From Teredinibacter sp. KSP-S5-2 (GTDB taxonomy: Bacteria; Pseudomonadota; Gammaproteobacteria; Pseudomonadales; Cellvibrionaceae), in contig NZ_CP120416.1 of assembly GCF_032773895.1 (NCBI RefSeq), forward strand, positions 1,300,001 through 1,364,000: a stretch of DNA of 64,000 nucleotides, written 5' to 3'. Below are positions 15,609 to 64,000 of the stretch, piece after piece (positions within the stretch are counted from its first letter, which is position 1; each line of letters starts with the position of its first letter). The translations under genes and the position numbers were made by a program. The notes beneath the pieces were generated by a model that saw nothing but the letters and a program-made list of their open reading frames with translations, ran no database searches and was not told the origin of the DNA.

Positions 15609-16763
15609 ATGAGTACTGTAAATAAAGTAAATCTGGTTCGACGAGATGATATTCCATCTATGAGAACTGTTGTGGTGGATGGTGTTGAACACTGGTTAGG
15701 TCATGTTAAAGATTTCACCAAGCATTCAACCTTGGTTAACTTTTTACCTAAAGATAACCGTATTTCTATGGCGTGGGTGCGTCTGGAAGCGGGAGAACAA
15801 TTGGATGAACATATTCATCCCGTTGAGTCCATGATTTTGCTTTGTGAAGGCAGCGCGGAAACTTTGGGTGATGTACAAGCACCTATGCAAGCCGGTGATG
15901 TATTGGTTGTTCCTCCGGGCAAAGAGCACGGGTTTATTGGCGGACAACCAAACGGTTTCTGGGGCTTGTCACTTCAGTTTGACTCCCGTGGTTTGTATGA
16001 GGATATTGATGACCCCTGGGCTTCTTTTGACGAGTATTCTGAAGTGGATTACTCAAAAATTGATGACCCTGCAGAGTTACTCTTCAAGAAAAACGAATAC
16101 TTTATGGAGCGCTTTGATAAGCACCGTTTATTCGCGCTTGTGCGTAAAGGCTTGATTAAACGCCCGGCACAAAAATCCCGTTTTCTGGATTGCTTCCAGG
16201 TTTGGTCAAACTATTTCCAGAAAATGGTTATTTCCAGAGTATTAAATACTCAGGATCCATGCCATGAAGCACTGGCTTGGGATCATTTTATGGAAGAGTT
16301 GGGGCATAACAAAGACCTCTCTGAATCAAGAGACAATGCCACTACCGTATTCGATCCGGTTTTAGAATCGTCTTCTGCCTGGTTCCAGAATATCATTCCG
16401 TCATTGAGTGATCTGGAGAAAGTCGTTCTCGTTCACTTGGTCGTAGAAGCCTCAGCGACATTTTTCTACAAGCATGTTAAACCAGCTATGGATGGGACTG
16501 CTTCCAGTGAACATTTTACTGCGCACAATATTGACGACCATGAACACGTTCAGATGGGATATCAGTTTATTCGTGAAACGCCTATTACGGATGTAAAACC
16601 TTTATTGGATATTCAAGAGAAAGGTTGGGCAATGTTGTCTGTGGTTATGGGACGTATTGCTGATTTGGTTGTTCACTATTCTGCCGATGATGATGCTAGT
16701 GAGAAATTGGAAACAGCTGAACAAACCAAGGTTGTTGAGGAAGCGGAACTGGAGACTGCGTAG
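15609..16763 (+). CDS. Cupin / heme-oxygenase-like diiron oxidase (HDO-like) fusion
   Basis: The 384-residue protein has an N-terminal cupin (about residues 50-120: H68-x-H70 metal motif, second motif PPGKEH ending at H107). The C-terminal domain (about 170-365) is all-helical and resembles heme-oxygenase-like diiron oxidases. Candidate iron ligands are E229/E230 in MEELGH, E280 in HLVVEAS, and a H306-x3-D310-x2-H313 motif. That last spacing is the one known from the HDO domain of SznF. SznF also joins HDO and cupin domains, but in the opposite order. The start has AAGGGG upstream, and the stop overlaps the GTG of the Rieske gene by one base. Reaction unknown; N-oxidation or oxidative cleavage are options. 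Confidence 0.7.
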   Translation: MSTVNKVNLVRRDDIPSMRTVVVDGVEHWLGHVKDFTKHSTLVNFLPKDNRISMAWVRLEAGEQLDEHIHPVESMILLCEGSAETLGDVQAPMQAGDVLVVPPGKEHGFIGGQPNGFWGLSLQFDSRGLYEDIDDPWASFDEYSEVDYSKIDDPAELLFKKNEYFMERFDKHRLFALVRKGLIKRPAQKSRFLDCFQVWSNYFQKMVISRVLNTQDPCHEALAWDHFMEELGHNKDLSESRDNATTVFDPVLESSSAWFQNIIPSLSDLEKVVLVHLVVEASATFFYKHVKPAMDGTASSEHFTAHNIDDHEHVQMGYQFIRETPITDVKPLLDIQEKGWAMLSVVMGRIADLVVHYSADDDASEKLETAEQTKVVEEAELETA

Positions 16764-17992
16764 TGACTGCCTTGAATACACAACCCCGAAAGGGGTTGTT
16801 CTACGTTTCGCCAGAAGTTTACACCGATAACCGCATATATCAGGATGAGGTTAATCGCATATATAAAGGTGAGTCCTGGAATTATCTCGGCTTGGAATGT
16901 GAGATTAAAAATCCAGGAGATTTTGTTCAAACTTTTATTGGTGATATTCCTGTTGTGGTGGTGCGCAATAAAGAACAGCAAGTTAGTGCATTTGTGAATC
17001 GTTGTACGCATCGAGGCGCTAAGGTTTGTTCCAAACGCAAAGGCAATACTAAAGCATTTGTTTGTCCTTACCATGACTGGTCATTTAATCTCGACGGCGA
17101 GTTACGGGGCGTGCCCTACAAAAATGGCGTGGATGGTAAGGGCGGTATGTCTGAAGCGTTTGATATGAAAAGCCATAATTTGACACCGGTTCGTATCGCG
17201 ACACGTAACGGTGTGATTTTCGGTACCTTTTCTCCCTCGACACCTTCACTGACAGAATACTTTGGCCCAAAAATTACCAAATATTTTGATCGGGTGTGCG
17301 ACGGGCGGCCATTAAAAATAGTTGGCAAGATGCGACACGTCGTGAACGCTAATTGGAAGCTGCAAATCGAAAATGTAAAAGATCCCGTTCACGCGGCCAT
17401 CCTGCATTCATTTTTTACCACCTTCGGTATTTGGCGGTCGGATCAGGATACCAATGTCATTATTGACGATTCTGGTAAGCACAGCGTGTTGGTGTCTTGT
17501 GCAACGTTTAGCAAAACTGAGAAAAAAACCACGAAACAGAGCGATTTTAGCCTGGAAGACACACGGCTTATTGATCATCAGCGCGAGTTTGAAGGTGGTA
17601 CAGGGGCAGTCATGACTATCTGGCCGAACCTGATTTTTCTACAACAGTTAAATTGTCTGGTGATGCGCCACGTTAAACCGGAAGGGCCAAATCGTAGTAT
17701 TCAAACCTGGACATTTTTTGGTTATGAAGATGAACCAGAAGCGTTAACTGAACGCCGTCTAAATCAAGCGAACTTATTGGGGCCTTCGGGGTTGGTCACC
17801 ATTGATGATAATGAAGTTCTGGCAATTACGCAGGAACATGCTGCCAACTCGCCCGAAATTCCGATGGTTTACGAATTTGGCCAAGGTGATACCGACGCAG
17901 ACTATATGGTAACAGAGGCGGCTATTCGTGCTTTCTATAACGCGTATTTTTCCGAAATTGGGGACAAGGTTAGATGGATGAACGATTGCTAA
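16763..17992 (+). CDS. Rieske non-heme iron oxygenase, alpha (catalytic) subunit
   Basis: The 409-residue protein has an N-terminal Rieske [2Fe-2S] domain with ligands C81, H83, C101 and H104 (CTHRG and CPYHDW). The catalytic domain carries the mononuclear iron site DPVHAAILH after a conserved NWKLQIENV. It belongs to the ring-hydroxylating dioxygenase family, which adds dioxygen to aromatic rings or performs N-oxidation and dealkylation. The start is GTG, overlapping the upstream stop by 1 nt, and the 3' end overlaps the beta subunit by 19 nt, so translation is coupled. No ferredoxin or reductase gene is nearby, so electrons must come from elsewhere. Confidence 0.92.
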   Translation: MTALNTQPRKGLFYVSPEVYTDNRIYQDEVNRIYKGESWNYLGLECEIKNPGDFVQTFIGDIPVVVVRNKEQQVSAFVNRCTHRGAKVCSKRKGNTKAFVCPYHDWSFNLDGELRGVPYKNGVDGKGGMSEAFDMKSHNLTPVRIATRNGVIFGTFSPSTPSLTEYFGPKITKYFDRVCDGRPLKIVGKMRHVVNANWKLQIENVKDPVHAAILHSFFTTFGIWRSDQDTNVIIDDSGKHSVLVSCATFSKTEKKTTKQSDFSLEDTRLIDHQREFEGGTGAVMTIWPNLIFLQQLNCLVMRHVKPEGPNRSIQTWTFFGYEDEPEALTERRLNQANLLGPSGLVTIDDNEVLAITQEHAANSPEIPMVYEFGQGDTDADYMVTEAAIRAFYNAYFSEIGDKVRWMNDC

Positions 17993-18465
17993 AAAATATC
18001 ATTCGACAAGAGATTTCGTCTTTTTATGCAGACTATTGTCAAGCGTTGGATAGTAGTGATGTTACCCGGTGGCCTGACTTTTTCTTCGACGATTGTGAAT
18101 ACCGTTTAACAACTCGTGAAAATCTGAATGATGACCTCGAACTGGCATTTATACGTTGTATTGGTAAATCGATGTTACGCGATCGAGCCGAAGGGTTAAA
18201 AAATGCGGTGTTTTATCGTGAGAGACTACAGCGAAGACTTGTAAGTGGTATCCAGGTGGATTTTGTAAAAGCCGATTTAACCCGGTTCGAATGTAAGACC
18301 ACCCTGGCGCTCATCGAAAGCTATGATGGTCAGCCATCTTCGTTGCTTGTTTGCGGAGAAACTCAAGATTCGATTGTAGTCGATCATGGCGAATACAGAT
18401 TTCAAAAAAGAATGTGCATTATCGATTCGGACACCATACCGGATTCCCTGGTTTACCCTCTATAG
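17974..18465 (+). CDS. Rieske oxygenase beta (small) subunit
   Basis: The 163-residue protein is of the SnoaL/NTF2-like type found in ring-hydroxylating dioxygenase small subunits: YADYCQALDSSDVTRWPDFF at the N-terminus, RERLQRRLVSG in the middle and a YRFQKRMCIIDSDTIPDSL tail. The product lacks cofactor motifs and would be structural in an alpha3beta3 oligomer. It begins inside the alpha gene (19-nt overlap), with an AAGG ribosome-binding site in the alpha coding sequence. Confidence 0.88.
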   Translation: MDERLLKNIIRQEISSFYADYCQALDSSDVTRWPDFFFDDCEYRLTTRENLNDDLELAFIRCIGKSMLRDRAEGLKNAVFYRERLQRRLVSGIQVDFVKADLTRFECKTTLALIESYDGQPSSLLVCGETQDSIVVDHGEYRFQKRMCIIDSDTIPDSLVYPL

Positions 18466-18510
18466 AAAAAATTTGTTAAAGCACATAACGTTAATAATTG
18501 GAGAATAACT

Positions 18511-20391
18511 GTGAAAGCAAAAATATCTGATCATCCAATGAAAAAGGTGGCAGTAATCGGCGCCGGATTATCAGGCTTGGTGACGATCAAAGAACTAATC
18601 GAAGAAAGTCATTCTGTCGTTTGCTTTGAGCAGGAGGATGATATTGGCGGTGCTTTTTATAATAAAGAATCGAAAGGTGGGATATATAACGAAATGCATC
18701 TTACCGTTTCCAATTATTTTATGTCCTTTTCTTCGCATCTTCCAGAAGATTTAAAACGCCGTTTTTGGACTGCGTCGGAGTATCTGGAGTATTTGCACAG
18801 TTTTGTTGAAAAATTTGCACTGAAGAAGTTTATCCGTTTTAAAACTGAGGTGGTGAATATCACTCAAGTTGATGAAGAAACCTGGAAGGTGTTTTATAAA
18901 GATCAAAGCGGGGATTTGCAATCGGAGTACTTTGACTCTATCGCTATATGCAGCGGAAAATTCCGCAACCCGAATGTGCCGAATATACAAGGCCTGGAGA
19001 GTTTTAAAGGAAGAATTCATCACAGTTTTAATTACAAAACACCAGAGCAGTTTGAAGGCAAAAAGGTGGTGTGTATTGGTATTGGAGAATCCGGTTCGGA
19101 TATCGTTCACCAGATATCAAAAGTAGCAGATGCAGCGCATCTGGTGGTGAATCGGCCAAAAAGCATTATTTCACGTATTATTTTTGGTGATACGGGGGAT
19201 TCCAGAACCACTCGCGCTGCACATTACTCGTTTTTGGTGAATCAATCTATTTTTGAGGCATCATTGAAAAAACGCGTTATGGCGAGAGGAATTCGTCATT
19301 ACCAAAATAAAAATCAGGGTCAGTTAAGTGCAATCTGGATGTGGAAGTATCTGGTTAAATTTGGTTTGCATGGTGAGTTTACCAACAAAAACGATGTGTT
19401 TTTCCAGGATATCGACTTCGAACGACTCAAGCTGCATATGTTCGGCATTGATCATGTGGTTGAAGATGGTGTGGTATTGAATGATGGATCAAAAATCGAA
19501 TGTACAGATATTATGCTGTCCACTGGCTACAAAACCCAGTTTGATGTGATTGATCACCCTGCAGCGAATGAGGTTGCGGACAATGTGCGTAATAACTATT
19601 GTCATATGATTCACCCGGATTTGCGGGAGTCCCTGGTGTGGATCGGTTTTGTTCGCCCTGATGTCGGAGGTGTGCCGACAATCGCTGAATTACAGGCGAG
19701 ATATTATGCTTCTTTATTATCCAAACGCCGTGAGTTACCTGCCGACGATGTCTTGCGAGAAAAAGTTAAAACTATGAAAGCTAAAGAGGAGTTCTATTTT
19801 TCTCTGGAGCCTGATAAATCAGAAAATGTTCGTTATTTGAAGTTTACTACCTACTTAGCCGGGCTGATTGGAGCGGAAGCTAAGTGGTATAAGCTAATCC
19901 TTAATCCTCGTTTATTCTTTAATTTTTATCATGGCAGTATGGTTGCTGCACAATTCAGGCTGCAGGGGCATGGTAAAAACTATAAGGCTGCAAAAGACTT
20001 TATTAATAAAAAGGTCGGGGTTACCCGAGCGCCACTTTCTCACTTGGCTTTCTTTATCCCACTTGGAACTGTATTGAGTGCGGTTGCACCGGTGTTTCGT
20101 CGGATAGTGAAAATGCTAAATATTGAGGATGTGGATTTCAATATGAAAAATGACTTTCTGTCGATAGAAGATATTATTCGATATCAATGGCCCGGAGGGA
20201 AAAGTATCTCTCATTTAAACTCCTCTACACCATTAAAACAGATTTTCACCAAAGACTATGAATGGGAAGGGTTCCGCTATTTCCTTCGAGAGCGATATGC
20301 CGTTGATCCAAGAATAACCGTCAACTCGACGATTACTATTGGAGATCTAGACCGAATGCTTCAGACCGATACCGAAGTCGAGCCGGCTTAA
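18511..20391 (+). CDS. Flavin-containing monooxygenase with long C-terminal extension
   Basis: The 626-residue protein has the FAD Rossmann motif GAGLSG (about residues 18-23), the class B monooxygenase fingerprint FKGRIHHSFNY and the NADPH motif GIGESG. It is clearly homologous to the two tandem FMOs at 56812-60047 (shared EMHLTVSNYFMSFSS-like block). It has roughly 100 more residues, partly as a C-terminal tail (IEDIIRYQWPGGKS region). The start is GTG 18511 with GGAG upstream; ATG 18538 is an alternative. FMOs hydroxylate nitrogen or sulfur or carry out Baeyer-Villiger oxidation. Next to the Rieske and HDO-like genes it suggests sequential oxidation of one substrate. Confidence 0.88.
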   Translation: MKAKISDHPMKKVAVIGAGLSGLVTIKELIEESHSVVCFEQEDDIGGAFYNKESKGGIYNEMHLTVSNYFMSFSSHLPEDLKRRFWTASEYLEYLHSFVEKFALKKFIRFKTEVVNITQVDEETWKVFYKDQSGDLQSEYFDSIAICSGKFRNPNVPNIQGLESFKGRIHHSFNYKTPEQFEGKKVVCIGIGESGSDIVHQISKVADAAHLVVNRPKSIISRIIFGDTGDSRTTRAAHYSFLVNQSIFEASLKKRVMARGIRHYQNKNQGQLSAIWMWKYLVKFGLHGEFTNKNDVFFQDIDFERLKLHMFGIDHVVEDGVVLNDGSKIECTDIMLSTGYKTQFDVIDHPAANEVADNVRNNYCHMIHPDLRESLVWIGFVRPDVGGVPTIAELQARYYASLLSKRRELPADDVLREKVKTMKAKEEFYFSLEPDKSENVRYLKFTTYLAGLIGAEAKWYKLILNPRLFFNFYHGSMVAAQFRLQGHGKNYKAAKDFINKKVGVTRAPLSHLAFFIPLGTVLSAVAPVFRRIVKMLNIEDVDFNMKNDFLSIEDIIRYQWPGGKSISHLNSSTPLKQIFTKDYEWEGFRYFLRERYAVDPRITVNSTITIGDLDRMLQTDTEVEPA

Positions 20392-20475
20392 TAGGTGTTT
20401 ATAAAATACACACTAGTCTAGCCTAGACTTTGTCTGCTTAGATCTGTGTTATGGCCTTTATTTGGGAGTGTCGGG

Positions 20476-21411
20476 TTGATACGTGGTTTATTGAAAGAAA
20501 ATATAAAAGCGGTGTATACACTTTTATCTTTACTTGCTGTGGGAACGCTGTTGTCGTTATCGGTATCCCTGAGCAAGTTTGCCTATTTAGACGGTATTGA
20601 CCCGATTGCGTTTCTGTTTGTGTCATCAACGATTGCCGGCTGCATTCTGCAAATTGTTTCCCTGTCGATGGGATACCGCTTTTTCCCCAGCCGTATTGCC
20701 TACGAATACGCTTTGGTAACAGGAATTGTTTTTGCGTTGACGAACGTGATGTCTTTTTTGGTGGTGAATCGGGTTGGTGTGGGCTATTTGTCAATATTGT
20801 TAACCTTCCCAATATCGATCACCTGGTTTTTATCCATATTTATGGGCCTGGCGGCGCTTAGGGTAAAACAATTACTGGGAACCATGTTGTGTATCGCTGG
20901 TGGTGTACTGCTTTCGTTATCAACCAATCAAATTGCACCGCAGTCTTATCCTTGGAGCTATATTGCCTTATTGATTCCAATAGTTATTTCGGTCGGGAAT
21001 ATTTATCGATCCTGTCGTTGGCCTGATGGTATTCATGCTATTCAACTGGCATCTGTGATGCTTCTTTCATCCAGTGCATTAATATGGGGAGTTCAGTATA
21101 CCCTGTCCAGTTCCTGGGAGGCGGATATTATCGGGGTTTTTGCCCAACCAAAGTGGTTGATAGGGGAAGTGATTGTTTACATTTTTATGTACTATTTGTT
21201 TTTTGTGGTACAGCGGCTTTCCGGCCCGGTATATATCAGCCTGATTGGTGTCATTGCTTCGATGACGGGTGCGTTAATTTCAGTGACATTTTTAAGTGAA
21301 ACTATCTCTGTCGGTATGATGGCTGCGATTCTTGTCATTATTCTCGGCCTTGCCGTGTTTGGCATTATGCCCCAAAAGCCCCAGTTACAGGAAATAGAAG
21401 GCCAGACATAA
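20476..21411 (+). CDS. EamA/DMT-family membrane transporter
   Basis: The 311-residue protein is almost wholly hydrophobic with about ten helices and two internal homologous halves, as in EamA (drug/metabolite) exporters. The start is taken as TTG 20476, where GGGAG is correctly spaced. A GTG at 20446 keeps the frame open but has no ribosome-binding site. As the last gene of the cluster (84 nt after the FMO) it is a natural candidate to export the pathway product. It is convergent with the LysR gene, with only 14 nt between the stops. Confidence 0.8.
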   Translation: MIRGLLKENIKAVYTLLSLLAVGTLLSLSVSLSKFAYLDGIDPIAFLFVSSTIAGCILQIVSLSMGYRFFPSRIAYEYALVTGIVFALTNVMSFLVVNRVGVGYLSILLTFPISITWFLSIFMGLAALRVKQLLGTMLCIAGGVLLSLSTNQIAPQSYPWSYIALLIPIVISVGNIYRSCRWPDGIHAIQLASVMLLSSSALIWGVQYTLSSSWEADIIGVFAQPKWLIGEVIVYIFMYYLFFVVQRLSGPVYISLIGVIASMTGALISVTFLSETISVGMMAAILVIILGLAVFGIMPQKPQLQEIEGQT

Positions 21412-21425
21412 ATGCCTTTCGCAAG

Positions 21426-22316
21426 TTAAATATGATCAAACTGCTTGGTCAAAAAATCGATGAACAGGCGGACTTTATTCGGAATATATTCCCTGTGGGG
21501 AATAATCGCGTACAGAGAAAATGACAGGTTGGTTTGATTGGGTAAAAGTTCGATCAGTTTTCCAGTATGTAAATCATCCTGAATCATAAAGGTGGGCAGT
21601 AAAGCAATACCTAACCCTTTTACCGCCAGTTTTCGAATGGTTTGAGGGCTGTTGATGGTAATGATTGGTTGAACTTCAACGGATTCCTCTAACGGTTCAC
21701 AGGTTTTGAAGGGCCATTTGGATTTTATCGTCAGGTTTGAATCGATAATACACTGATGTGATGTTAACTCCGATGGGTTTTGTGGCGCACCATAACGACT
21801 GATGTAGATCGGCGATGCACAGAGTTTAAAGCTGAATTCCGATAATTTACGAGAGATCAGATTTGAACTGACGGTTTCTCCAACCCTAATGGCCAGATCG
21901 ACGCCTTCTTCCAGCAAGTCAATTTTTCGGTTGGTTAGTTGTACATCCAGATGCAGGTCAGGGTAGGTTTCAATAAATAACGGAAGTTTTGGGGCGAGTA
22001 ATAATTCGCCAAAGGTAACCGAGGTGCTTATTTTGAGTGAACCTTTTAATACGCCTTTTTTCTCTGATACCACATCCACCAGTGAGGAAAATTCACTCAG
22101 TAATACCAGGGATTGGTTGTAATATTTAACACCGGCTTCTGTTGGCGCTATTTTTCTTGTGGAACGATTGAAAAGCCTGACGCCAAACTGGTTTTCAACT
22201 GTACCCACATATTTGCTGATCAAAGCCTTGGATAAGCCCAAGCGTTCACCGGCTGCTGTAAACGAACCCGTTTCAACAACAGCAACAATGGTTTTTATTC
22301 CATCAAGTGTATCCAT
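21426..22316 (-). CDS. LysR-family transcriptional regulator
   Basis: The 296-residue protein has an N-terminal winged helix-turn-helix (FTAAGERLGLSKALISKYVG, then LFNRSTRKIAPTEAG) and a periplasmic-binding-protein-like effector domain of normal length. It resembles the CrgA/PA-type LysR group. It is convergent with the EamA gene, so if it controls the oxidative cluster it must act at the distant promoter before 13458. Ligand unknown. Confidence 0.9.
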   Translation of the reverse strand: MDTLDGIKTIVAVVETGSFTAAGERLGLSKALISKYVGTVENQFGVRLFNRSTRKIAPTEAGVKYYNQSLVLLSEFSSLVDVVSEKKGVLKGSLKISTSVTFGELLLAPKLPLFIETYPDLHLDVQLTNRKIDLLEEGVDLAIRVGETVSSNLISRKLSEFSFKLCASPIYISRYGAPQNPSELTSHQCIIDSNLTIKSKWPFKTCEPLEESVEVQPIITINSPQTIRKLAVKGLGIALLPTFMIQDDLHTGKLIELLPNQTNLSFSLYAIIPHREYIPNKVRLFIDFLTKQFDHI

Positions 22317-53657: not shown

Positions 53658-53749
53658 CAAAAAAAATACCTCAGCGTCTAAAAAATAAGTCACCTCTTAG
53701 CTAAAAGCGATGACTCATTTCTCATTCAGTTTTTTGGCGTTGAGGTATT
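53658..53749 (-). terminator. Long imperfect hairpin terminator of the 905-residue cytochrome gene
   Basis: On the minus strand AATACCTCA (53749-53741) pairs with TGAGGTATT (53673-53665), with further pairing inside (the TGACT/AAGTCA arms), followed by eight T. It begins at the cytochrome stop codon. Confidence 0.75.
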
Positions 53750-56465
53750 ATTGATTTGCCGTCAATAATTGTTCAACTAAATAGGCGTCAGGTGTTAGTG
53801 GGTCGGTACCCAATGTCTTTTCGTCACCGTCGTATATGCCGTCTTCATCGTGGTCAATACCCATCCAGATGCCTGAGCCGGGCGGCACACAGGTAAAGGT
53901 GAGAGTCTGATTATGTTTGCTTACCAGCTTACGCAGTTCTGAGTCATTCAACACCTCCTGGATTTTGTCACTTTGATAACTGCCATCCGCATGCATTAAA
54001 TAGCTACGTTGTTGACCATCAATAACGCCTTTTACCACCAGGTCACATTCTTCCCTCGGTGTGACAATTTGTGCGCGGGATCGTAGCAGATCAATTCTCT
54101 CATGCACTTTTGTGTCACTGTGTTTGGTTAAGGTGATTTGTTGTCCGACAACCGGGGCAAGCTCGCTATCAATGGCGAGGATAAAATCCACGACCTGATC
54201 GCGTTTAAGGTCGGTTTCAAAATGGAAGTTAGGGCTTTTTAAAAACTTATCCAGAGTGTCCAGTGTGCCATCGTGTAGGAAACCAAACCCTTTTATCTGT
54301 TCCCCATAATCAATGCCGTCCGTGAAAAACCGACCGGAATTGCCAAAGCGTCCTATCTTTTGATAGAGGTTACGTAGATGGGGGACTTTAAATTCCTGAG
54401 TTATATCGGGGCCGGCAAGTACCGATAAAGCACCTGTTCCAAACTTATTGTTGACCGGGTCTAAAACATGACATTGATTGCAGGCATGAACAGGTTGGGG
54501 GACGCCAGTCGTAATATCATTGTTATAGACATCAAGACCGGCTTGTTGCATCGGTGTCAGCGAGTTATCCAACGCCCGGATTGGATTGGGAGGGTAGGTT
54601 ATCTCCAGTCCAAATCTAGACAGTTTATCAATGTCCGTTTCACTTAATTGATTTTCCCGTCCGACCAAGCCGGTAAATGCGGCATTAAATTCTTTTAGTG
54701 CTGCAAATTCAATACTTTCACCTTCTTTCGCTTGTGCGCCGGTTCGGTCTCCACGCCAGTGCATTGGCCCGTTACCTTTTAGGCCGCGCATACTTTGTGT
54801 GGTCATTGGCCCTTTTAGAGGATGGAAATAAGGTGTGTAAGGCGGTGTTACTTTCTCATCGACGTAACCGTTAGGGTTAAGTTTCATTGGTGCATCCGGG
54901 TCACCAAGGTCCCAGGCTAAACCATCGAAATCTCCATAGACATGACAAAGTGCGCAGGAAGAATCGCCGCGACTGGATGTAGCAATGGAATCGTATAAAA
55001 ACGGCCGTCCTTCGATCACACTGTCAGGTTCGGGGTTGTACATTGCAACGCGGGATACTTCATTTTTTGATTTTGTATCAATGACTGAAACACTGTTGTC
55101 AAAACGTGTTAATACATACAAACGGTTGTTTGTTTCATCTAAAGCGATACCGGAAGGGCCGCCGCCAGAAAGACGAATATATTTTTCCGGACTGGGTTGA
55201 AAACTATTATTCTCCAACTCTTGCGTATTTATGACGGCAATATTACTGGAACCGAAACCGGCTACATATAACGTCTTTCCATCCGAGGTAATGGCCATAT
55301 CCGTTGGATATGAAATTGCTGAGTCTCGTTCGGTTTTCGTGCCGGGGAATTGAGTGTAATCAATGTGCTTGTTTAAATGTCGTGGACTGACACTATTGTT
55401 TTTAATAACGCTAATATGATTTTCAGTAAAGTGACCACGAACACTGGATGCCATAGTGCCGGGTCCTTCAAACCTATTTACATTTAATGCTTCCAGATTG
55501 GTGACATAAAGCGCGCCATTTCTTGGGTTTGTAATCATATTTAGCAAAACCGTACCCACACCGCTGTAGGGAGTTCCGCTCAGTTTTGGTTTTTTGCCGT
55601 TTTCAATATCAATGCGGAATACATCATAGTCAGGCAAAGAAAATAAAACACGGCTGCCGTAATTTGTTCCGTTTTGATCTGCAGCGTTACCATTCTCGTC
55701 AACCCACTGGTTTCCGTCGAATTGAACAATCAGGCCGGTATCCGGTTGTGGTGTTCCGTCAATACTTGTGGTTGGGCCGTGTTTGGCAAAGTACTCCACT
55801 CCCAAGGACGTTGTTTGGTTGCCTGAAAGAAAGATGGAGGCAAAAACACTTTTTCCATCGGGGCTTACCGTTAGAGATCTTGGGGTGTCGCCAAATAAAT
55901 TGATCACATCAACCGGGTCGCCCCCAATTGTTTCGCCCAGATTCATGGTGTCAAAAACCCAAACATCAGCGCGACCGATTCCGGGTTCAGTAAGCTTGGC
56001 ATCAATAGGTCTATCATCTCGCCCGTTTTGTCCTCTGTGGGCAGCGGTAATAAACGCATACCTATTATTATTCCCTGCGAACACAATGTCTCTCGGCTCA
56101 TCGCCTACCAGAAGAGTGCGAATAATTTTTGCGGGCTTCTCACTGATATCAATAATACTGACACTATCTGAAAGGTGATTTACCACCCAGACTTGTTTGT
56201 TGCTGAGTACGGCGATGGATGTTGGTTCCATGCCAACATCAATGCTTTCTGATAAAGACAGTCCACTGCTGGTAACGGAAAATATTTCCAGAGAACTGTT
56301 TGGCGTGTTGAGTGCAAAAATATTTTTTCCGTCATCTGATATGGCTATCGGGTTAACCTGGCCTGTTTCGAACGTAACAAAATTATCTCCTCTCGATGTG
56401 GCTTTGCAAGAACTTAAATGAAATACAGTAAAGCACATAAATAATAGTTTATAAAAATTATTCAT
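53748..56465 (-). CDS. Beta-propeller / diheme cytochrome lipoprotein (MauG-like C-terminal half)
   Basis: The 905-residue protein begins with a lipoprotein signal peptide and lipobox HLSSC (Cys 20). Residues about 35-480 form YVTN-type propeller repeats (ISDDGKNIFALNTPN, IAVLSNKQVWVVNHLSDSVS, LTVSPDGKSVFASIF). The C-terminal half has two heme-c sites, CALCH at 504-508 and CNQCH at 662-666, of the diheme peroxidase/MauG type. It ends in an Asp-rich GIDHDEDGIYDGDEKTLGTD calcium-type motif. It probably sits on the outer membrane and oxidises a protein or small molecule. It is monocistronic. Confidence 0.85.
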   Translation of the reverse strand: MNNFYKLLFMCFTVFHLSSCKATSRGDNFVTFETGQVNPIAISDDGKNIFALNTPNSSLEIFSVTSSGLSLSESIDVGMEPTSIAVLSNKQVWVVNHLSDSVSIIDISEKPAKIIRTLLVGDEPRDIVFAGNNNRYAFITAAHRGQNGRDDRPIDAKLTEPGIGRADVWVFDTMNLGETIGGDPVDVINLFGDTPRSLTVSPDGKSVFASIFLSGNQTTSLGVEYFAKHGPTTSIDGTPQPDTGLIVQFDGNQWVDENGNAADQNGTNYGSRVLFSLPDYDVFRIDIENGKKPKLSGTPYSGVGTVLLNMITNPRNGALYVTNLEALNVNRFEGPGTMASSVRGHFTENHISVIKNNSVSPRHLNKHIDYTQFPGTKTERDSAISYPTDMAITSDGKTLYVAGFGSSNIAVINTQELENNSFQPSPEKYIRLSGGGPSGIALDETNNRLYVLTRFDNSVSVIDTKSKNEVSRVAMYNPEPDSVIEGRPFLYDSIATSSRGDSSCALCHVYGDFDGLAWDLGDPDAPMKLNPNGYVDEKVTPPYTPYFHPLKGPMTTQSMRGLKGNGPMHWRGDRTGAQAKEGESIEFAALKEFNAAFTGLVGRENQLSETDIDKLSRFGLEITYPPNPIRALDNSLTPMQQAGLDVYNNDITTGVPQPVHACNQCHVLDPVNNKFGTGALSVLAGPDITQEFKVPHLRNLYQKIGRFGNSGRFFTDGIDYGEQIKGFGFLHDGTLDTLDKFLKSPNFHFETDLKRDQVVDFILAIDSELAPVVGQQITLTKHSDTKVHERIDLLRSRAQIVTPREECDLVVKGVIDGQQRSYLMHADGSYQSDKIQEVLNDSELRKLVSKHNQTLTFTCVPPGSGIWMGIDHDEDGIYDGDEKTLGTDPLTPDAYLVEQLLTANQ

Positions 56466-56811
56466 TAATTTATCTCCTTGGTTAATGTAAGGGGTTGGGT
56501 TTTTATGGGTATTTTGATAAATAAAAATTTATGTCGTAAAAAATTATTTATTTTTATTGTGACTTAATTGTTTCAAGAAAAAATAATTAAATATCAATTT
56601 AACAATTCGAAGATATTTTATATATAAAATTATTAAAAATTTGTTTTTGGTGTGGACATCAAAAACGTTTGAATATAGATTTGTCGGCAAGATGGCTAAG
56701 GGATTAGGGTTTTAATGACATTTTGAATTATTAGGTCACATTATATGATTTTATTGGTCATTGCGTTATTCAGAGTGACAGTTAATAAACTAAAAATACA
56801 AAAGGCTAAAA
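56466..56811. other. 346-nt divergent AT-rich promoter region
   Basis: Very AT-rich spacer between the cytochrome gene and the FMO operon, including a long run of A/T from about 56515 to 56650. It must hold both promoters. No operator with a recognisable consensus was found. Confidence 0.5.
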
Positions 56812-58398
56812 ATGTCTACTACTAACAATTTGAATGTGTGTGTGATCGGTGCTGGAAGTTCTGGCTTGGTGGCAATAAAAGAGCTTCTGGATGAAAATCA
56901 TTCGGTAGTGTGTTTTGAGAAGTACGATCAGGTTGGTGGAAACTTTTACAGGAATGATGAGGTGAAAGACACTGGTGCCTACGATTCCACAATGTTGACT
57001 ATCTCGAATTATATGATGGCGTTTTCCAGCTTTCCGCCTCCCTTAAGTGAAAAAAGAAAGTTTTGGAGTGGGGCTGAATATCAGGAATATCTGAATCGTT
57101 TTGCTCAAGAGTTTTCTCTCAATGAGTGCATTCAATACAATAAAGAAGTAATAAGTGTTAAAAATATTGGCTCAGGCGACAATGATCGATACGAGGTTGT
57201 GGTTAGGTCGTTAGCTGACGATAGTGAACAGGCCTTTATATTTGACGCGGTGGCCGTGTGCACCGGTAGTAGTCGAGTGCCGAAGTATGTTGAATTAAAA
57301 GGCAAAGAAAAATTTAAGGGCGAAATCTATCACTCGGCATATTATAAAAACGCCGAACCCTATTCCGGGCGAAAAGTATTATGTGTTGGAATGGGTGAAA
57401 CTGGTGTGGATGTGGTTAACGAGCTGGCTGGGGCTGCAGAGAAATGTGTTCTGTCTGTTCGTCAATATCAGCCCGTGATTGAACGTTTTCCCTTGTTGCG
57501 GGAACATACCAGTGACGCTTATACCTCTCCGTTTTTGTATGCGCAGCCGATTTCAGCCGCCAATGCCAGAATGAAGCTGCAATTTGTGTTAACAAAAAAA
57601 TATTCAAAAATTGATCAGCAAAAAGCCTTTGCAGACTGGAATCTGAAGGCCGGTGGTTACTTCAATGGATTTAATATTAAAAGTGAAATATTTGTCGACC
57701 GTATTGTAGAAGACAAACTTATCATCAATGACAGTGGTGTTGATTACCTGGAAGAGCATCATGTTGTGTTCAAGGATGGGCGGCGTGAAGAAATTGATAT
57801 GGTGATGCTCAACACCGGTTACATGGATAAATTCTGCTTTTTAAAAGATGTAGATGTTACTGATGTACGTATGTTGTATAAACATATGATTCACCCTGGC
57901 TTGGGTAAGGGAATTGTCTTTATTGGCTGGGCAAGGCCTGCTGTGGGTGGTGTGCCAGCCTGTTCTGAAATGCAGAGTCGCTATTTCGCGTTACTATGCA
58001 GTGGAAAGAAAAAATTACCTGAGCCTAAGAAGCTGATGAATATTATCCGGCGCCAGGCGAAATATGAAGATCAGGTCTACCATAAAAATCCCGCTTTACG
58101 TTCCCTGGTGAGCTACACCAAGTACATGAATGACTTTGCCAAAGTAATTGGTTGCAGCCCCTGGCGTATTCGAACCTTCCTGAATCCGGTACTTGCATAT
58201 CGGCTGTGGATCGGTTCGCAAATGCCTACCATTTACCGGTTATACGGCCCTCACAGTGATTATCACAACGCTAAGAAAAGCATTTTCAATGTGCCTGTTG
58301 CATTCGGGGCGGTTGAAACTGTGATCTTGACGTTATATACCGTGGTCACAAGGTTACTGGCATCTTTCAGGGTAATTACACCTGATCCTAAATACTAA
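56812..58398 (+). CDS. Flavin-containing monooxygenase, tandem copy 1
   Basis: The 528-residue enzyme has the FAD motif VIGAGSSGLVAIKELL (about residues 11-26), the FMO fingerprint FKGEIYHSAYY and the NADPH motif GMGETG. It closely resembles the next gene across its whole length, including the shared MMAFSSFPPP, CTGSSRVPKYVE and LNTGYMDKFCF segments. It is also related to the FMO at 18511. No signal peptide is present, so it is cytoplasmic. It is the first gene of a five-gene operon ending at 63810. Likely reactions are N- or S-hydroxylation or Baeyer-Villiger oxidation. Confidence 0.92.
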   Translation: MSTTNNLNVCVIGAGSSGLVAIKELLDENHSVVCFEKYDQVGGNFYRNDEVKDTGAYDSTMLTISNYMMAFSSFPPPLSEKRKFWSGAEYQEYLNRFAQEFSLNECIQYNKEVISVKNIGSGDNDRYEVVVRSLADDSEQAFIFDAVAVCTGSSRVPKYVELKGKEKFKGEIYHSAYYKNAEPYSGRKVLCVGMGETGVDVVNELAGAAEKCVLSVRQYQPVIERFPLLREHTSDAYTSPFLYAQPISAANARMKLQFVLTKKYSKIDQQKAFADWNLKAGGYFNGFNIKSEIFVDRIVEDKLIINDSGVDYLEEHHVVFKDGRREEIDMVMLNTGYMDKFCFLKDVDVTDVRMLYKHMIHPGLGKGIVFIGWARPAVGGVPACSEMQSRYFALLCSGKKKLPEPKKLMNIIRRQAKYEDQVYHKNPALRSLVSYTKYMNDFAKVIGCSPWRIRTFLNPVLAYRLWIGSQMPTIYRLYGPHSDYHNAKKSIFNVPVAFGAVETVILTLYTVVTRLLASFRVITPDPKY

Positions 58399-58475
58399 TA
58401 AAAATAATACAGAATTTTTCGCTTAGTCATTTCTTCTATAAAGAAAATAAAAATTTTACCTGATAAGGAAGACCT

Positions 58476-60047
58476 ATGTTTACACAAAAAAAACATGTCT
58501 GTGTTATTGGTGCCGGAAGCTCAGGCCTTACCGCTATTAAAGAGCTTCTGGATGAGGGGCATGAGGTAACCTGTTTTGAAAAATATGGTCAGCCCGGAGG
58601 CAATTTTTATCGTAGTGATAATAAAGAGACGGGTGCCTACGACTCTACATTGCTGACCATTTCCAATTATATGATGGCTTTCTCCAGTTTTCCGCCTCCA
58701 ATGAAAGATCAACGACGTTTCTGGACCGCTGCGGAATACCAGCAATACCTGGTGGATTTTGCCCAGAAATTTGGTTTGGATGAAACTATTGTGTATTACT
58801 CGGAAGTCTCCAACGTTGAAAAAAATGGTGAAGGGAAGTATATCGTTGACGTCATGTCTACTGAGGATCAGATGACCCGGCAATATGCGTTTGATGCTGT
58901 TGCTGTGTGTACCGGTAGTAGTCGTGTGCCCAAATATGTCGAAGTGAAAGGTCTGGAAGACTTCGAAGGGGATGTCTTCCACTCAGCGTATTATCGTAAC
59001 GCGGATCCTTATAAGGGACGTAAAGCCCTATGTATTGGAATGGGAGAAACCGGCGTTGATGTGGTCAATGAAATTTCCCAGTTAGCCGAAAAATGTGTGC
59101 TTTCGGTCAGGCAGTATCAACCTATTATCCAGCGCTTTCCTTTTGGTGGAGTTCACACCAGTGATGCCTATACCTCTCACGCTTTAAACGCCACGCCTGT
59201 TGTTGCCGCTAACGCACGGATGAAATTCGCATTCAAAATGATATCTAAACACTCGAAGGACCCAGAAGAGCGGGAATACGCCAAGTGGAACCTTAAAGCA
59301 GGGCATTACTTGAGTGGATTCAATATTAAAAGTGAAGCATTTGTTAAGCGGATAGTTGATAACAAATTAAATATCAATGATTCAGGTATTGATCATATCG
59401 GTAAAGACTACGTCATGTTTAAAGATGGCAGAAAAGAAGAAATCGATATGATTATGCTGAATACGGGTTACATGGATAAGTTCTGTTTTATTAAAGATGC
59501 GGATGTGACAGATGTTCGGCACTTATATAAGCATATGATCCACCCTGAGTTAGGTGATGAAGTTGTGTTTATCGGCTGGGCACGTCCTGCAGCAGGTGGA
59601 GTCCCTGCCTGTTCGGAAATGCAGGCCAGGTATTTTGCGCTGTTATGCAGTGGTAAAAAGAAATTGCCAGAAAAAGAAAAGCTGATGATGTTAATCGATC
59701 AGCAGGCCAACTACGAAGATAAAGTTTTCTATCGTAATAAGAATGTACGATCGCTCGTCCAGTATTCGAAGTATATGAGTGATTTCTCGCGAGTGATTGG
59801 TTGTTCTCCCTGGCGAGCATCGACTTTCCTGAATCCGTTATTAACCTATCGGCTGTGGTTTGGTTCGCAAATGCCAATTATTTACCGGTTGCACGGTCCA
59901 CACAGCGATTATCAGAAAGCCAAAAAGCTGATTTTTAATGTGCCGGTTGCATTACCGTTGTTTGAGATGATTTTGATGTCCATATATGCACCCATTTCGC
60001 ATATTTTGGCGAACATCGGTGTCATTGAGCCTGATCCGAAGTACTAA
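58476..60047 (+). CDS. Flavin-containing monooxygenase, tandem copy 2
   Basis: The 523-residue paralogue of the previous gene has FAD motif VIGAGSSGLTAIKELL, fingerprint FEGDVFHSAYY and NADPH motif GMGETG. AAGGAAG lies ahead of the ATG. The pair clearly arose by tandem duplication, and differences cluster in the middle and the C-terminal tail, so they may have divided the work. The ribosome-binding and spacing pattern (77 nt from copy 1, 21 nt to the next gene) supports one operon. Confidence 0.92.
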   Translation: MFTQKKHVCVIGAGSSGLTAIKELLDEGHEVTCFEKYGQPGGNFYRSDNKETGAYDSTLLTISNYMMAFSSFPPPMKDQRRFWTAAEYQQYLVDFAQKFGLDETIVYYSEVSNVEKNGEGKYIVDVMSTEDQMTRQYAFDAVAVCTGSSRVPKYVEVKGLEDFEGDVFHSAYYRNADPYKGRKALCIGMGETGVDVVNEISQLAEKCVLSVRQYQPIIQRFPFGGVHTSDAYTSHALNATPVVAANARMKFAFKMISKHSKDPEEREYAKWNLKAGHYLSGFNIKSEAFVKRIVDNKLNINDSGIDHIGKDYVMFKDGRKEEIDMIMLNTGYMDKFCFIKDADVTDVRHLYKHMIHPELGDEVVFIGWARPAAGGVPACSEMQARYFALLCSGKKKLPEKEKLMMLIDQQANYEDKVFYRNKNVRSLVQYSKYMSDFSRVIGCSPWRASTFLNPLLTYRLWFGSQMPIIYRLHGPHSDYQKAKKLIFNVPVALPLFEMILMSIYAPISHILANIGVIEPDPKY

Positions 60048-60068
60048 TTCTTCCATAAGGAATCCTGT

Positions 60069-61094
60069 ATGAACCAAGATAATAAAACACATATCGACCC
60101 GTTAAGCGCTCCTGAATTTTCGGATTTGATCTTTAATGAATTGAATTGGAACTCTGAGGAAGAAATTCCTGAAGGGGTAAAAATATTTGATTTGGAAGAG
60201 TTAGAAAAAGGTTTGAGGTTGGATGAACTTAAAGAATCATTGGAAAAGTCTTATCCCTTCTATATTAAAAACTTCGGTATACACGAAGACGAAGTTGAGA
60301 ATATCTTTAATACAACCAGACGTTTCTTCAGAAAGTCGGAAGCGGAAAAGCGAGCCATGGTGCATGAACGCTTGCCCATTATTCTTCGTGGTTACTCTGC
60401 CTATGGTACTGGTGCGTATGAAAACTCGATCAACAATGGTAAAGCGATTAATCAGTACGCCAAATATGCTTGGGGACCGTCCGAAAATGTATATCCGGAT
60501 GACGGATTTAAAAATACCTTTCAAGACATGATTGACAAGTTAATTCGCGTTTCAGACCGAACGATGGATTGTATTGGTAAAGCGCTGGATTTAAAACAGC
60601 ATCCAGAATGGGATAACCTGTTTGATGGAGAAGACACCGTACTTCACTGTCAATGCTATTACCCGGAGAAACCTTTGGGTGTAGACAGAATGGTCACTCA
60701 TGCTGATGCATCCTCTATTACCTTGCTTACTCAACTACCTGCGCGAAACGGCCACGTTGGGTTAAAAGCCAAAATGGATGATAAATACGTGCCGATTCCT
60801 CCTGTTCGTGGCTCTATTGTAGTCATGACAGGGGAGACAATGAACTCATTGACCAACGGCCGAGTTCAACCCGTTATGCACGCAGTGACTGGTCCTGCAA
60901 CGGATATTGAAAATAGCGAACGCAGTTCCATGCCGTTCTTTGCTAACCCTAAAAATACATTCAAGATGCAGCGTCCCCCAGTCAGTACACACCATAAGTT
61001 TTACAACGAGGATAACTCCACAACCTTTGGTGACTATTCCAATAATATTGCTGTGGCGTACAAGCAAACGGAAGAAGTGGCTGAGGCTGTTTAA
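60069..61094 (+). CDS. 2OG/Fe(II)-dependent oxygenase, isopenicillin-N-synthase-like
   Basis: The 341-residue protein has an N-terminal DIOX_N-type region (YPFYIKNFGIHEDEVENIF, FFRKSEAEKRAM) and a jelly-roll with the iron triad H211-x-D213 and H271 (VMHAVTGP). An R-S-S follows shortly after in ENSERSSMPFF, the usual 2-oxoglutarate-binding RxS. These enzymes hydroxylate, desaturate or cyclise small molecules. AGGAA lies just before the ATG. It sits between the FMO pair and a lyase gene, all 21 nt apart. Confidence 0.92.
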   Translation: MNQDNKTHIDPLSAPEFSDLIFNELNWNSEEEIPEGVKIFDLEELEKGLRLDELKESLEKSYPFYIKNFGIHEDEVENIFNTTRRFFRKSEAEKRAMVHERLPIILRGYSAYGTGAYENSINNGKAINQYAKYAWGPSENVYPDDGFKNTFQDMIDKLIRVSDRTMDCIGKALDLKQHPEWDNLFDGEDTVLHCQCYYPEKPLGVDRMVTHADASSITLLTQLPARNGHVGLKAKMDDKYVPIPPVRGSIVVMTGETMNSLTNGRVQPVMHAVTGPATDIENSERSSMPFFANPKNTFKMQRPPVSTHHKFYNEDNSTTFGDYSNNIAVAYKQTEEVAEAV

Positions 61095-61139
61095 CAATAA
61101 CCGTTCCACAGGGATGTGGTGGTATCGATAGCATCAAAT

Positions 61140-62504
61140 ATGAATACTGTCTTCGAACCCTATAGAATTAAAAGTGTTGAGTTGTTAAAAGTCACCACGG
61201 AACAAGAGCGAAAGGCTTTGTTGCGTGAGGCTTTTTACAACGTCGCCTTACTAAAATCTGATGATGTGTTACTGGATTTTCTAACCGACTCTGGTATATC
61301 TGCGATGAGCTCCAATCAGTGGGCGGCTGTGCAGCTTGGTGACGAAAGTTATGTTCGTTCTCCGTCTTACGAAAAGTTTCAACAGTCTCTGCGGGAAATT
61401 ATTCCTTTTAAACATATTATTCCAACCCATCAAGGACGTTCTGCAGAAAGAATTCTGGCCAGCCTGGTGACCAGCGAAAATACCATTATTCCCAATAATG
61501 CCCATTTTGATACCACCAAAGGTAACATTATGAGTATGGGGGGTGAGGCCGTAGATCTATTAGTAGATGAGTCACGAGACCTGAATAGTGATTACCCGTT
61601 TAAAGGGAATATGGATATCGACCGTTTGGCTTCCCTGTTGAAAGAGCATAGCGAAAGCATTCCTCTGGTTTTTCTTACCATCACAAATAACTCTGCATTG
61701 GGACAACCGGTTTCGATGCAGAATATCCGTGCAACACGGGACTTGTGTCATACCTTTAATATTCCTCTTTTTTTCGATGGTTGCCGCTTTGCAGAAAATG
61801 CATACATGATTAAACAGCGGGAAGAGGGCTACGCAAATATCCCTGTCAGAGAAATTATCCAGGAGATGTTTTCTTATGTTGATGGTATGACCATGAGTGC
61901 TAAAAAAGATGCTTTGGTCAATACCGGAGGCTGGTTAGCATTAAATGATGATGATTGGGCAAAAAAAGCCTTAAACGAGTTGTTGCTTACCCAAGGTTTT
62001 GTGACTTACGGTGGTTTGAGTGGCAGAGACCTTGAAGCCATTGCTGTGGGCGTGCAGGAAGGTGTGGACGAGCATTACCTGAAGCACAGAATTAAATCCG
62101 TCGAACGCTTGGCGAGTGGTCTGGATAAATTGGGTATTCCTGTAGTGAAACCCTACTCATCTCATGCGGTATATGTCGATGCAACGCGCTTTTTCAACCA
62201 TATTGATGCCGCACATCACCCTGGGCAAACATTAAATGTGGCCTTGTATGAAAGTGGGGGTATACGCGCGTGCGAATTAAATTCGATTAAGTTGGATAAC
62301 GCTTTCGATAAGCCTGAGGCTTCCGGTCGCTGCCTTATTCGAATGGCTATCCCCCGGCGGGTATACACCCAAAGTCATTTGGACTATGTGGTCGAGGTGT
62401 TTGACCATATTAGTAAAAATAAAACTCGTTGGTCAGGGCTGGATAAAGTTTCGGATGCGGACCCGTTGTATTACTACGGTGCCAAATATCAACCTGTGAC
62501 TTAA
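61140..62504 (+). CDS. PLP-dependent beta-eliminating lyase, tryptophanase/tyrosine phenol-lyase family
   Basis: The 454-residue product aligns end to end with tyrosine phenol-lyase and tryptophanase (N-terminus EPYRIKSVELL, LTDSGISAMSSNQWA). Catalytic features are kept: the Tyr in DESYVRS, PTHQGRSAE, the pyridine-binding Asp in FFDGCRFAENAY, the PLP lysine in TMSAKKDALVN and the carboxylate-binding Arg in MAIPRRVYT. HFDTTKG keeps the Asp specific to tryptophanase. GGIRACELNS has a Leu where tryptophanase has Ile and tyrosine phenol-lyase has Arg. A tryptophanase His near the C-terminus appears replaced by Tyr. ATG 61140 matches the family start; GTGs at 61116 and 61119 also lie in frame. Confidence 0.9.
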   Translation: MNTVFEPYRIKSVELLKVTTEQERKALLREAFYNVALLKSDDVLLDFLTDSGISAMSSNQWAAVQLGDESYVRSPSYEKFQQSLREIIPFKHIIPTHQGRSAERILASLVTSENTIIPNNAHFDTTKGNIMSMGGEAVDLLVDESRDLNSDYPFKGNMDIDRLASLLKEHSESIPLVFLTITNNSALGQPVSMQNIRATRDLCHTFNIPLFFDGCRFAENAYMIKQREEGYANIPVREIIQEMFSYVDGMTMSAKKDALVNTGGWLALNDDDWAKKALNELLLTQGFVTYGGLSGRDLEAIAVGVQEGVDEHYLKHRIKSVERLASGLDKLGIPVVKPYSSHAVYVDATRFFNHIDAAHHPGQTLNVALYESGGIRACELNSIKLDNAFDKPEASGRCLIRMAIPRRVYTQSHLDYVVEVFDHISKNKTRWSGLDKVSDADPLYYYGAKYQPVT

Positions 62505-62562
62505 GAATAATTATGTTGTTGTAAATAAATTGTCTCTGTGTAAATAGAAAGTGGAAGTGAAA

Positions 62563-63810
62563 ATGAAAAGTGATTTCGAGGTAGTTATTGTTGGCGCTGG
62601 CCAGGCTGGTTTGTCTGTCAGCTACTACTTGGCAAAGGAAAATATAGACCACGTTATCCTGGAGCAGGATAGTGTTATTGCTTCCTCCTGGAAGAAAAGA
62701 AAATGGGATTCGTTCACACTCATTACGCCAAACAGTATGAATCAGTTACCGGACTTTCCGGCACAGGGCTTTGGTGAGGACGAATTTCTTACCAAAGAGC
62801 AGGTGTGTATGTATGTCGATGACTTCGCAGGACAATTTGATAAAGAAATACGTTTTAATGTCCGGGTTTCTGAGGTGGTAAAAGAAGATGATCGCTTTGT
62901 GTTACGCACGAATAATGGTGTTTTTACTGCAAAGCAAGTTGTGGTTGCCACTAGCGCATTTAATAAGCCTCGAATCCCCGAATTTTCCAATGCGATATCA
63001 TCAGGAGTTACGCAGACTCACTCTTCTGAGTATAAGAACCCTGAGAGTTTACCTGACGGCGCGGTATTGGTTGTGGGGGTAGCTCAATCCGGTGCGCAAA
63101 TTGTTGATGAATTGGTTGAAGCGGGCCGTGATGTCTTTTGCTCTACCAGTCGTACTATGAAAATGGCTCGACGTTACAGGGGAAAAGATACCACGAAGTG
63201 GGCGAGGTTGATGGGCTTTCTGGAAGCAAAAGTCCCTATGACAAAAGAGCTCGGCGGTAAATTTCCTTCTAGCCCGCAGGTATCTGGTAAAAACGGCGGA
63301 AAGGAAATTCATCTGCAAGAGTTGGCGCGTTCCGGCTTAAAACTTTTGGGGAAGATGAGTCACGCCGATGGCGATAGGTTATTTTTTGATTCGGACTTGG
63401 TCGAAAATATGACGTTCATCGCTAACTCCAGTACTCAGTTTCTGAAAAAAGTGGATGAGTTTATTGAAACGGAAGCGTTGGACTGCCCTGCGCCAGATTA
63501 TATCGAACCGCCGTTGGACGATTATGCCGGCGCACCTCAGGAGCTCTCCATTAGTCAATGCAATATCAGCTCGATAATTTGGGCTTCCGGTTATCAGTAT
63601 GATTTTAGCTGGATTCATGAAGATGTCTTCGACGAGTTTGGTTACCCCATTGCTGAGCGTGGTGTGACTCAGTGCCCAGGATTGTATTTTGTTGGTATTC
63701 AAGGGGTCGATTTAAATAAATCGACTTTGCTTTATGGTGTAGGGCAGCATGCAAAGTATATTGCTGAGTGTGTTCAGAAAGCTACAACCAAGGCTGCTGC
63801 TGTAATTTAA
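62563..63810 (+). CDS. FAD-dependent monooxygenase, CzcO/YUCCA-like
   Basis: The 415-residue enzyme has FAD motif VIVGAGQAGLSVSYYLA, then WDSFTLITPNSMNQLPDFP and the NADP motif VVGVAQSG. The C-terminal IIWASGYQYDFSWI is the ATG-like motif of these enzymes. It belongs to a different branch from the two FMOs upstream. ATG 62563 is chosen because GGAAG sits 7 nt before it; GTG 62551 is in frame. As the last gene before a terminator it closes the operon. Substrate is probably a product of the lyase or FMO step. Confidence 0.9.
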   Translation: MKSDFEVVIVGAGQAGLSVSYYLAKENIDHVILEQDSVIASSWKKRKWDSFTLITPNSMNQLPDFPAQGFGEDEFLTKEQVCMYVDDFAGQFDKEIRFNVRVSEVVKEDDRFVLRTNNGVFTAKQVVVATSAFNKPRIPEFSNAISSGVTQTHSSEYKNPESLPDGAVLVVGVAQSGAQIVDELVEAGRDVFCSTSRTMKMARRYRGKDTTKWARLMGFLEAKVPMTKELGGKFPSSPQVSGKNGGKEIHLQELARSGLKLLGKMSHADGDRLFFDSDLVENMTFIANSSTQFLKKVDEFIETEALDCPAPDYIEPPLDDYAGAPQELSISQCNISSIIWASGYQYDFSWIHEDVFDEFGYPIAERGVTQCPGLYFVGIQGVDLNKSTLLYGVGQHAKYIAECVQKATTKAAAVI

Positions 63811-63841: not shown

Positions 63842-63866
63842 AATCCACTTTTTAAGGTGGATTTTT
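63842..63866 (+). terminator. Intrinsic terminator of the FMO-lyase operon
   Basis: AATCCAC (63842-63848) pairs with GTGGATT (63857-63863) with an 8-nt loop, followed by TTTTA. It lies 31 nt after the last stop codon. Confidence 0.75.
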
Positions 63867-64000
63867 ATTTCTGTTTAGAGTCATTTTCTATGTTGATTAG
63901 GCTCTAATCGGTGATATGTCCAAATAGGATATGAGTTGAAATTCCTGGCCTTCTTTTGAAACACGCAATAAATACGTCTATGTAAGCTCGTTGTCAGCGT

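Follow-up and report, generated by a model that had tools for sequence, protein, structure and literature searches.

A gene cluster that continues beyond the window

What is made by an operon that encodes three flavin enzymes, a 2OG oxygenase and a lyase of the tryptophanase family? The question is raised by a locus of Teredinibacter sp. KSP-S5-2 lying at the end of the stretch of DNA analysed (64,000 nucleotides, contig positions 1300001-1364000; hereafter the window). Positions past this end are window-equivalent numbers, which are obtained as the genome position minus 1300000. The original prediction was that the lyase of a five-gene operon releases indole or phenol from an amino acid and that four oxygenases modify it. 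The observation itself has held and the interpretation has held in part: the gene identities and their arrangement stand, whereas the tyrosine phenol-lyase (TPL) option and a simple indole/indigo chemistry do not fare well. The features of the locus are the following:

56466..56811, intergenic region of 346 nt with 24% GC, presumed promoter region of the operon, common to a divergent gene
56812..58398, + strand, FMO1, class B flavin monooxygenase of 528 aa, tandem paralogue of FMO2 (PF00743, 6.5e-68)
58476..60047, + strand, FMO2, class B flavin monooxygenase of 523 aa (PF00743, 1.5e-64)
60069..61094, + strand, 2OG-Fe(II) oxygenase of 341 aa (PF03171, 2OG-FeII_Oxy, 4.5e-13; PF14226, DIOX_N, 1.5e-8)
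61116..62504, + strand, tryptophanase/TPL-family PLP beta-eliminating lyase of 462 aa from GTG (Beta_elim_lyase, 2.1e-69; PRK13238, 582 bits)
62551..63810, + strand, FMO3, smaller flavin oxidoreductase of ArsO/MSMEG_0569 type, 419 aa from GTG (Pyr_redox_3, 2.4e-27)
63842-63863, + strand, terminator-like hairpin downstream of FMO3 and ahead of the NRPS-like gene, perhaps leaky
64212-66905 (genome 1364212-1366905), + strand, A-PCP-TE NRPS-like gene, the next co-directional gene after FMO3
66949-67914, + strand, TauE/SafE-type exporter, a membrane protein, 43 nt past the NRPS-like gene
67953-67972, GC-rich terminator-like hairpin after the exporter

ORFs and Pfam domains agree on five intact, closely spaced genes on the + strand, separated by 77, 21, 21 and 46 nt, and the Pfam domains together with active-site motifs bear out the identities assigned to them (two FMOs, a 2OG oxygenase, a tryptophanase-type lyase and a third FMO). 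The real starts of the lyase and of FMO3 are likely the ATG codons at 61140 and 62563, respectively. The GC content is 43% in the operon, 43.6% in the window and 24% in the upstream gap; the AT-rich stretch of 346 nt that had been described as a promoter is right in length and composition. A promoter scan of the region returned no more sigma-70-like matches upstream of the operon than expected by chance. Across this gap, a divergent gene (53748-56465, - strand) encodes a beta-propeller protein of 905 aa that carries two c-type haem motifs (CxxCH).

The five genes are not the complete cluster, which is cut by the end of the window (position 64000), and the NRPS-like gene and the exporter come next, with a GC content (43-44%) equal to that of the operon. 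The next large gene past the exporter lies on the opposite strand. The terminator that had been placed at the operon end does correspond to a hairpin, but an AT-rich and modest one (-9 to -10 kcal/mol, z -1.8). The operon and the NRPS-like gene may be separate units because FMO3 ends 401 nt before the likely ATG of the latter, with this hairpin in between. No sigma-70-like match was found in the same gap (0 found, about 10 expected; scan over locus L017, 300-4600), and transcription may therefore run on from the operon. Either one transcript with attenuation or two units could comprise the operon, the NRPS-like gene and the exporter.

A single-module NRPS-like protein

Counted from a TTG at 64188, the NRPS-like protein has 905 aa, the ATG at 64212 being its likely start. 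It is a single-module A-PCP-TE protein in which the A3, PCP and TE motifs are intact and Asp235 of the A domain is present. Loss of this Asp is shown by the aryl-pyruvate A-T-TE synthetases of the atromentin/ralfuranone type, an identity that was rejected here because Asp235 is kept; its presence points to an amino acid, and not to a keto acid, as the substrate. The A-domain code, taken by alignment to GrsA, is DACTVAAVCK; the GrsA sequence was validated by the recovery of its known Phe code, DAWTIAAICK, with the same procedure. The code of the NRPS-like protein resembles that for Phe, except that Cys takes the place of Trp239, a change that may be read as a wider aromatic pocket. A closely written code, DAWTVAAVCK, has been predicted to specify Phe in lunaemycin (PMC9866976), and no match to DACTVAAVCK, with Cys at 239, was found in the literature searched. 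Given this gene and the exporter downstream, the chemistry of the locus likely moves to an adenylated, carrier-bound amino acid.

The flavin monooxygenases

FMO1 and FMO2 are class B flavin monooxygenases according to their two Rossmann motifs, their fingerprint, the PF00743 domain and a fold match. They hold the FAD and NADPH sites (GAGSSG and GMGETG), the FAD motif GAGxxG being present in all three FMOs of the operon, and the fingerprint FxGxxxHxxxY appears as FKGEIYHSAYY in FMO1 and FEGDVFHSAYY in FMO2. The two proteins share 67% identity and group as sisters in the tree (support 99/98), and the duplication would therefore have occurred after the split from their actinobacterial relatives. 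The latter, which are the nearest relatives of FMO2 (53-55% identical), come from six actinobacteria, or seven with a truncated Streptomyces glaucescens contig. Their genes are found directly after a P450 gene, and within 10 kb or less of them there are A-PCP or adenylation/AMP-ligase genes, TE, SDR and aminotransferase genes, as well as a halogenase in two cases. On a plasmid of Agrobacterium vitis, a more distant FMO match is located inside an annotated adenylation-domain protein.

The best VIA matches of the FMO2 model (pLDDT 78) are ancestral vertebrate FMOs (Z 34-37) and DiatB (Z 34). They are followed by the LbmA Ox-ACP didomain (Z 31.7), in which an FMO is linked to a carrier and of which there is a crystal structure with ethyl glycinate, an insect alkaloid N-oxygenase (Z 30) and the garlic S-allyl-cysteine S-oxygenase (Z 27.7). 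AetF, a single-component halogenase, scores Z 26 against the 34-37 of the ancestral FMOs, and such a role is less favoured for FMO1 and FMO2. Oxidation of an amine by these two enzymes is plausible by analogy: the FMO SCO7468 has been shown to convert tryptophans to aldoximes by N-hydroxylation, its sister clusters carrying a tryptophanase (PMC3617294), and in the necroxime pathway an OXY domain has been proposed to help convert the glycine primer to an oxime (PMC7318616). S-oxidation or Baeyer-Villiger chemistry may also be carried out by enzymes of this sequence, and their substrate may be either carrier-bound or free.

FMO3 is of a different type. Its fingerprint is the variant SGVTQTHSSEY, its PDB match is 4usr (2.2e-23), and its score against the MSMEG_0569 family TIGR04046 (366.5 bits) is below the cut-off of 498.35.

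The 2OG oxygenase

The 2OG oxygenase is distantly similar to DAOCS and ACC oxidase (best PDB match DAOCS, 1.4e-23) and retains the HxD...H triad (H211, D213, H271) and the RxS motif (R285, S287) of 2OG-Fe(II) oxygenases. Its relatives are rare. Outside its own genome, one was detected at E 1e-40 in a single genome of the 369 of the class sample, none at the same threshold in the 398 of the phylum sample, and none at E 1e-30 in the 144 genomes of the family. The relative found in the class sample (G087, gammaproteobacterial), 36% identical and encoded in a reduced genome of 1.4 Mb, keeps both the triad and the RxS motif. Its gene adjoins a stand-alone adenylation ORF, and close by lie another ORF of adenylation type and one that resembles a 4'-PP transferase, the roles of these neighbours being read from their translations. 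This complete-looking genome appears to hold an NRPS-like cluster (contig 7, L021) comprising adenylation proteins, an acyl-CoA dehydrogenase, an MFS exporter and PPTase-like ORFs, which is unusual for a reduced genome.

A tryptophanase-family lyase with a changed ring pocket

The lyase conserves the PLP lysine, the phosphate/PLP contacts and the general-acid Tyr (K264, Y79, D221, R224, N192, QGR 106-108 and R409). It exceeds the cut-off only of the subfamily PRK13238 (582 versus 285), remaining below those of the NCBIfam equivalogs NF053783 (490 versus 750), TIGR02617 (399 versus 826) and TIGR02618 (454 versus 721). Its closest relatives (50-52%) are canonical tryptophanases from other genomes of the phylum and from a Limnohabitans plasmid.

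Five positions discriminate tryptophanase (Asp137, Phe304, Val394, Ile396, His463) from TPL (Thr124, Met288, Met379, Arg381, Phe448) (PMC5805759). The lyase shows Asp132, Phe295, Cys386, Leu388 and Tyr453 at them; three of these residues follow tryptophanase and not TPL (agreeing or conservative), Cys386 being also found in close relatives. A TPL identity, which had been offered as the phenol-releasing option, was consequently rejected, as none of the five TPL residues is found in the lyase. The ring pocket also departs from that of tryptophanase. His463-Phe464 corresponds to Tyr453-Tyr454, so that the C-terminal motif LRHF (LRFF in TPL) is LYYY in the lyase; tryptophanase-type relatives carry His at the first of these positions (one carries Gln). 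Tyr-Tyr occurs in none of the 29 distinct aligned relatives, all of which are R-H-F or R-F-F except for one R-Q-F.

The meaning of this substitution can be judged from the H458A mutant of Proteus vulgaris tryptophanase, which retains 1.6% of kcat and 0.4% of kcat/Km on Trp, while its kcat/Km on S-ethyl-cysteine is 10-fold higher (PMC11301627). Since loss of the His nearly abolishes the cleavage of Trp and not that of S-alkyl-cysteine, release of indole from plain Trp by the KSP-S5-2 lyase is doubtful, and the sequence predicts an altered aromatic or a thiol as the leaving group.

These data weaken the simple indole/indigo chemistry that had been put forward. Under such a model the five genes would be self-contained: the lyase would free indole from Trp (or phenol from Tyr), the four oxygenases would convert this compound to an indigoid or a hydroxylated aromatic, and the NRPS-like gene would have no part in the pathway. 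The tryptophanase fold with all its catalytic residues, the tryptophanase-like pocket residues (Asp132, Phe295 and a hydrophobic side chain at position 396), and the hairpin after FMO3 are in agreement with this model, as is the fact that IptB- and AetE-type tryptophanases act in natural-product clusters, AetE alongside a flavin enzyme (PMC3617294, PMC12210266). However, the replacement of His463, the absence of the TPL residues, and the A-PCP-TE gene and exporter that follow on the same strand make it unlikely.

Another reading is that the operon is devoted to sulfur chemistry, with FMO1 and FMO2 S-oxygenating an S-substituted cysteine, the lyase cutting the C-S bond in an alliinase-like manner, and the TauE/SafE protein exporting a sulfur acid. 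The match to the garlic S-oxygenase, the improved use of S-ethyl-cysteine upon loss of the His and the family of the exporter are compatible with this scheme, but the A-domain code is aromatic-like and not Cys-like, the residue that serves the NH of indole (Asp132) has been retained, and the substrates of the TauE family vary. The scheme is considered quite unlikely.

Proposed pathway

The explanation preferred here, which is given about an even chance of being correct, is that seven or more genes form a small orphan biosynthetic cluster around the single-module NRPS-like protein, directed to an oxidised, perhaps N-oxygenated, aromatic amino-acid derivative. In this pathway, the A domain would activate an aromatic (Phe/Tyr-like) amino acid and load it onto the PCP. 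FMO1 and FMO2 would oxygenate the amino acid, most likely at the amine (at the N-hydroxy or oxime level), the 2OG enzyme would hydroxylate or desaturate the side chain or the ring, and the TE would free the product. With its changed ring pocket, the lyase might act on a modified aromatic amino acid by beta-elimination or by the reverse reaction (beta-substitution). It would thereby either supply an unusual building block or split the oxidised product so that a modified aromatic is set free. FMO3 could add one more flavin-dependent oxidation, and an acidic product would be exported by the TauE-type protein. The substrate, the order of these steps, the oxidation of the amine on a carrier, the product, its export and the joint action of the seven genes are part of the proposal, whereas the set of genes, their intact active sites, the type of the lyase pocket, the A-domain code and the occurrence of FMO and 2OG relatives near NRPS genes were observed directly. 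Because no relative carries the whole set, the linkage rests on adjacency and on the differing partners found elsewhere.

The cluster is of a small NRPS-like kind that is already known, with one unusual enzyme. It would join FMO amine oxidation and tryptophanase-type cleavage, which are known separately, to a single-module NRPS, and its lyase represents a case of a tryptophanase-family enzyme without the residue needed for tryptophan. A bolder and rather doubtful version of the proposal is that this lyase is the first member of its family with a pocket reshaped (LRHF to LYYY) for an oxidised, N-oxygenated or noncanonical amino acid, supplied by the duplicated FMOs and the 2OG enzyme on the single-module NRPS, in which case carrier-bound oxidation followed by PLP-dependent beta-elimination or substitution would give a new class of small oxidised metabolite.

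Comparison with known systems

Actinobacterial indole prenyltransferase clusters (IptA/IptB; SCO7467/SCO7468) are likewise small, and they modify an aromatic amino acid before a tryptophanase or an aldoxime-forming FMO acts on it (PMC3617294). These two enzymes define separate cluster types, whereas both enzyme types are together in the KSP-S5-2 operon, the likeness to SCO7468 being drawn from its published activity and not from sequence comparison. The KSP-S5-2 cluster encodes a 2OG enzyme as well as an A-PCP-TE protein, and its operon has no prenyltransferase. A pair of the IptA/IptB type, with a tryptophan dimethylallyltransferase directly before a tryptophanase, was observed on a plasmid of Streptomyces sp. 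CL7 (L040, 4792-7443).

The aetokthonotoxin pathway also combines a tryptophanase (AetE) with an FMO-fold flavin enzyme, the halogenase AetF (PMC12210266, PMC10306068). FMO2 is nevertheless nearer to ordinary FMOs than to AetF, the KSP-S5-2 operon lacks the nitrile-forming diiron enzyme, and its lyase lacks the tryptophanase His. The oxime-forming Ox/OXY domains of the lobatamide and necroxime synthases have an FMO fold linked to a carrier protein and act on an amino-acid starter (PMC7318616), whereas the FMOs of KSP-S5-2 are separate proteins, are present in duplicate and are accompanied by a stand-alone A-PCP-TE protein and a 2OG enzyme. The clusters of the nearest FMO relatives, namely the actinobacterial P450-FMO-NRPS clusters (L008-L012, L014), have a P450 where KSP-S5-2 has the 2OG oxygenase. 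No lyase gene was found in their fetched flanks, nor was any relative of the 2OG oxygenase at E 1e-20 in the corresponding genomes. In the sources searched, none of these known systems brings tryptophanase-type and FMO enzymes together with both a 2OG enzyme and an A-PCP-TE protein.

The set was also sought in genomes and plasmids, in sampled or seed-based searches of a kind that can miss rare orthologues. In the overlapping samples (58 genomes of relatives, 369 of the class, 398 of the phylum and 144 of the family), FMO2 was recovered at 1e-80 only from its own genome, and a pattern-seeded scan of 84,980 genomes detected FMO relatives without a 2OG oxygenase or a lyase in their flanks. The plasmids searched yielded none with the five-gene set. 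The search for the same gene order that had been suggested as a check therefore returned no second copy, and the view that no described pathway has this gene content agrees with the open-licence literature searched.

Other oxygenase and lyase loci

A catabolic or detoxifying operon, in which an exogenous aromatic amine or amino-acid conjugate is oxidised and cleaved, is improbable: degradation often involves FMOs and 2OG oxygenases, and another aromatic-oxidation gene (an AndAc-like Rieske enzyme) lies elsewhere in the window, but the unit holds no ring-cleavage or uptake gene, the duplicated FMOs have NRPS-associated relatives, and the A-PCP-TE gene is adjacent.

The Rieske oxygenase belongs to a second oxygenase cluster (15609-21411, + strand), which also encodes a cupin-containing protein of 384 aa, a SnoaL-like protein, an FMO of 626 aa and an EamA exporter, and is followed by a LysR regulator (21426-22316, - strand). 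This FMO is 36% identical to FMO2 and has some 110 extra C-terminal residues. On a Vibrio cyclitrophicus plasmid (L024), an FMO with 40% identity is paired with a redox enzyme that contains iron and with a DMT exporter. Finally, the same contig of KSP-S5-2 encodes, at 2356192-2362725 (L018:6192-12725, - strand), a PKS-type protein of 2177 aa with a KS, an embedded Beta_elim_lyase domain and a terminal reductase domain, which resembles the PLP lyase domains of leinamycin type (PMC3870968).
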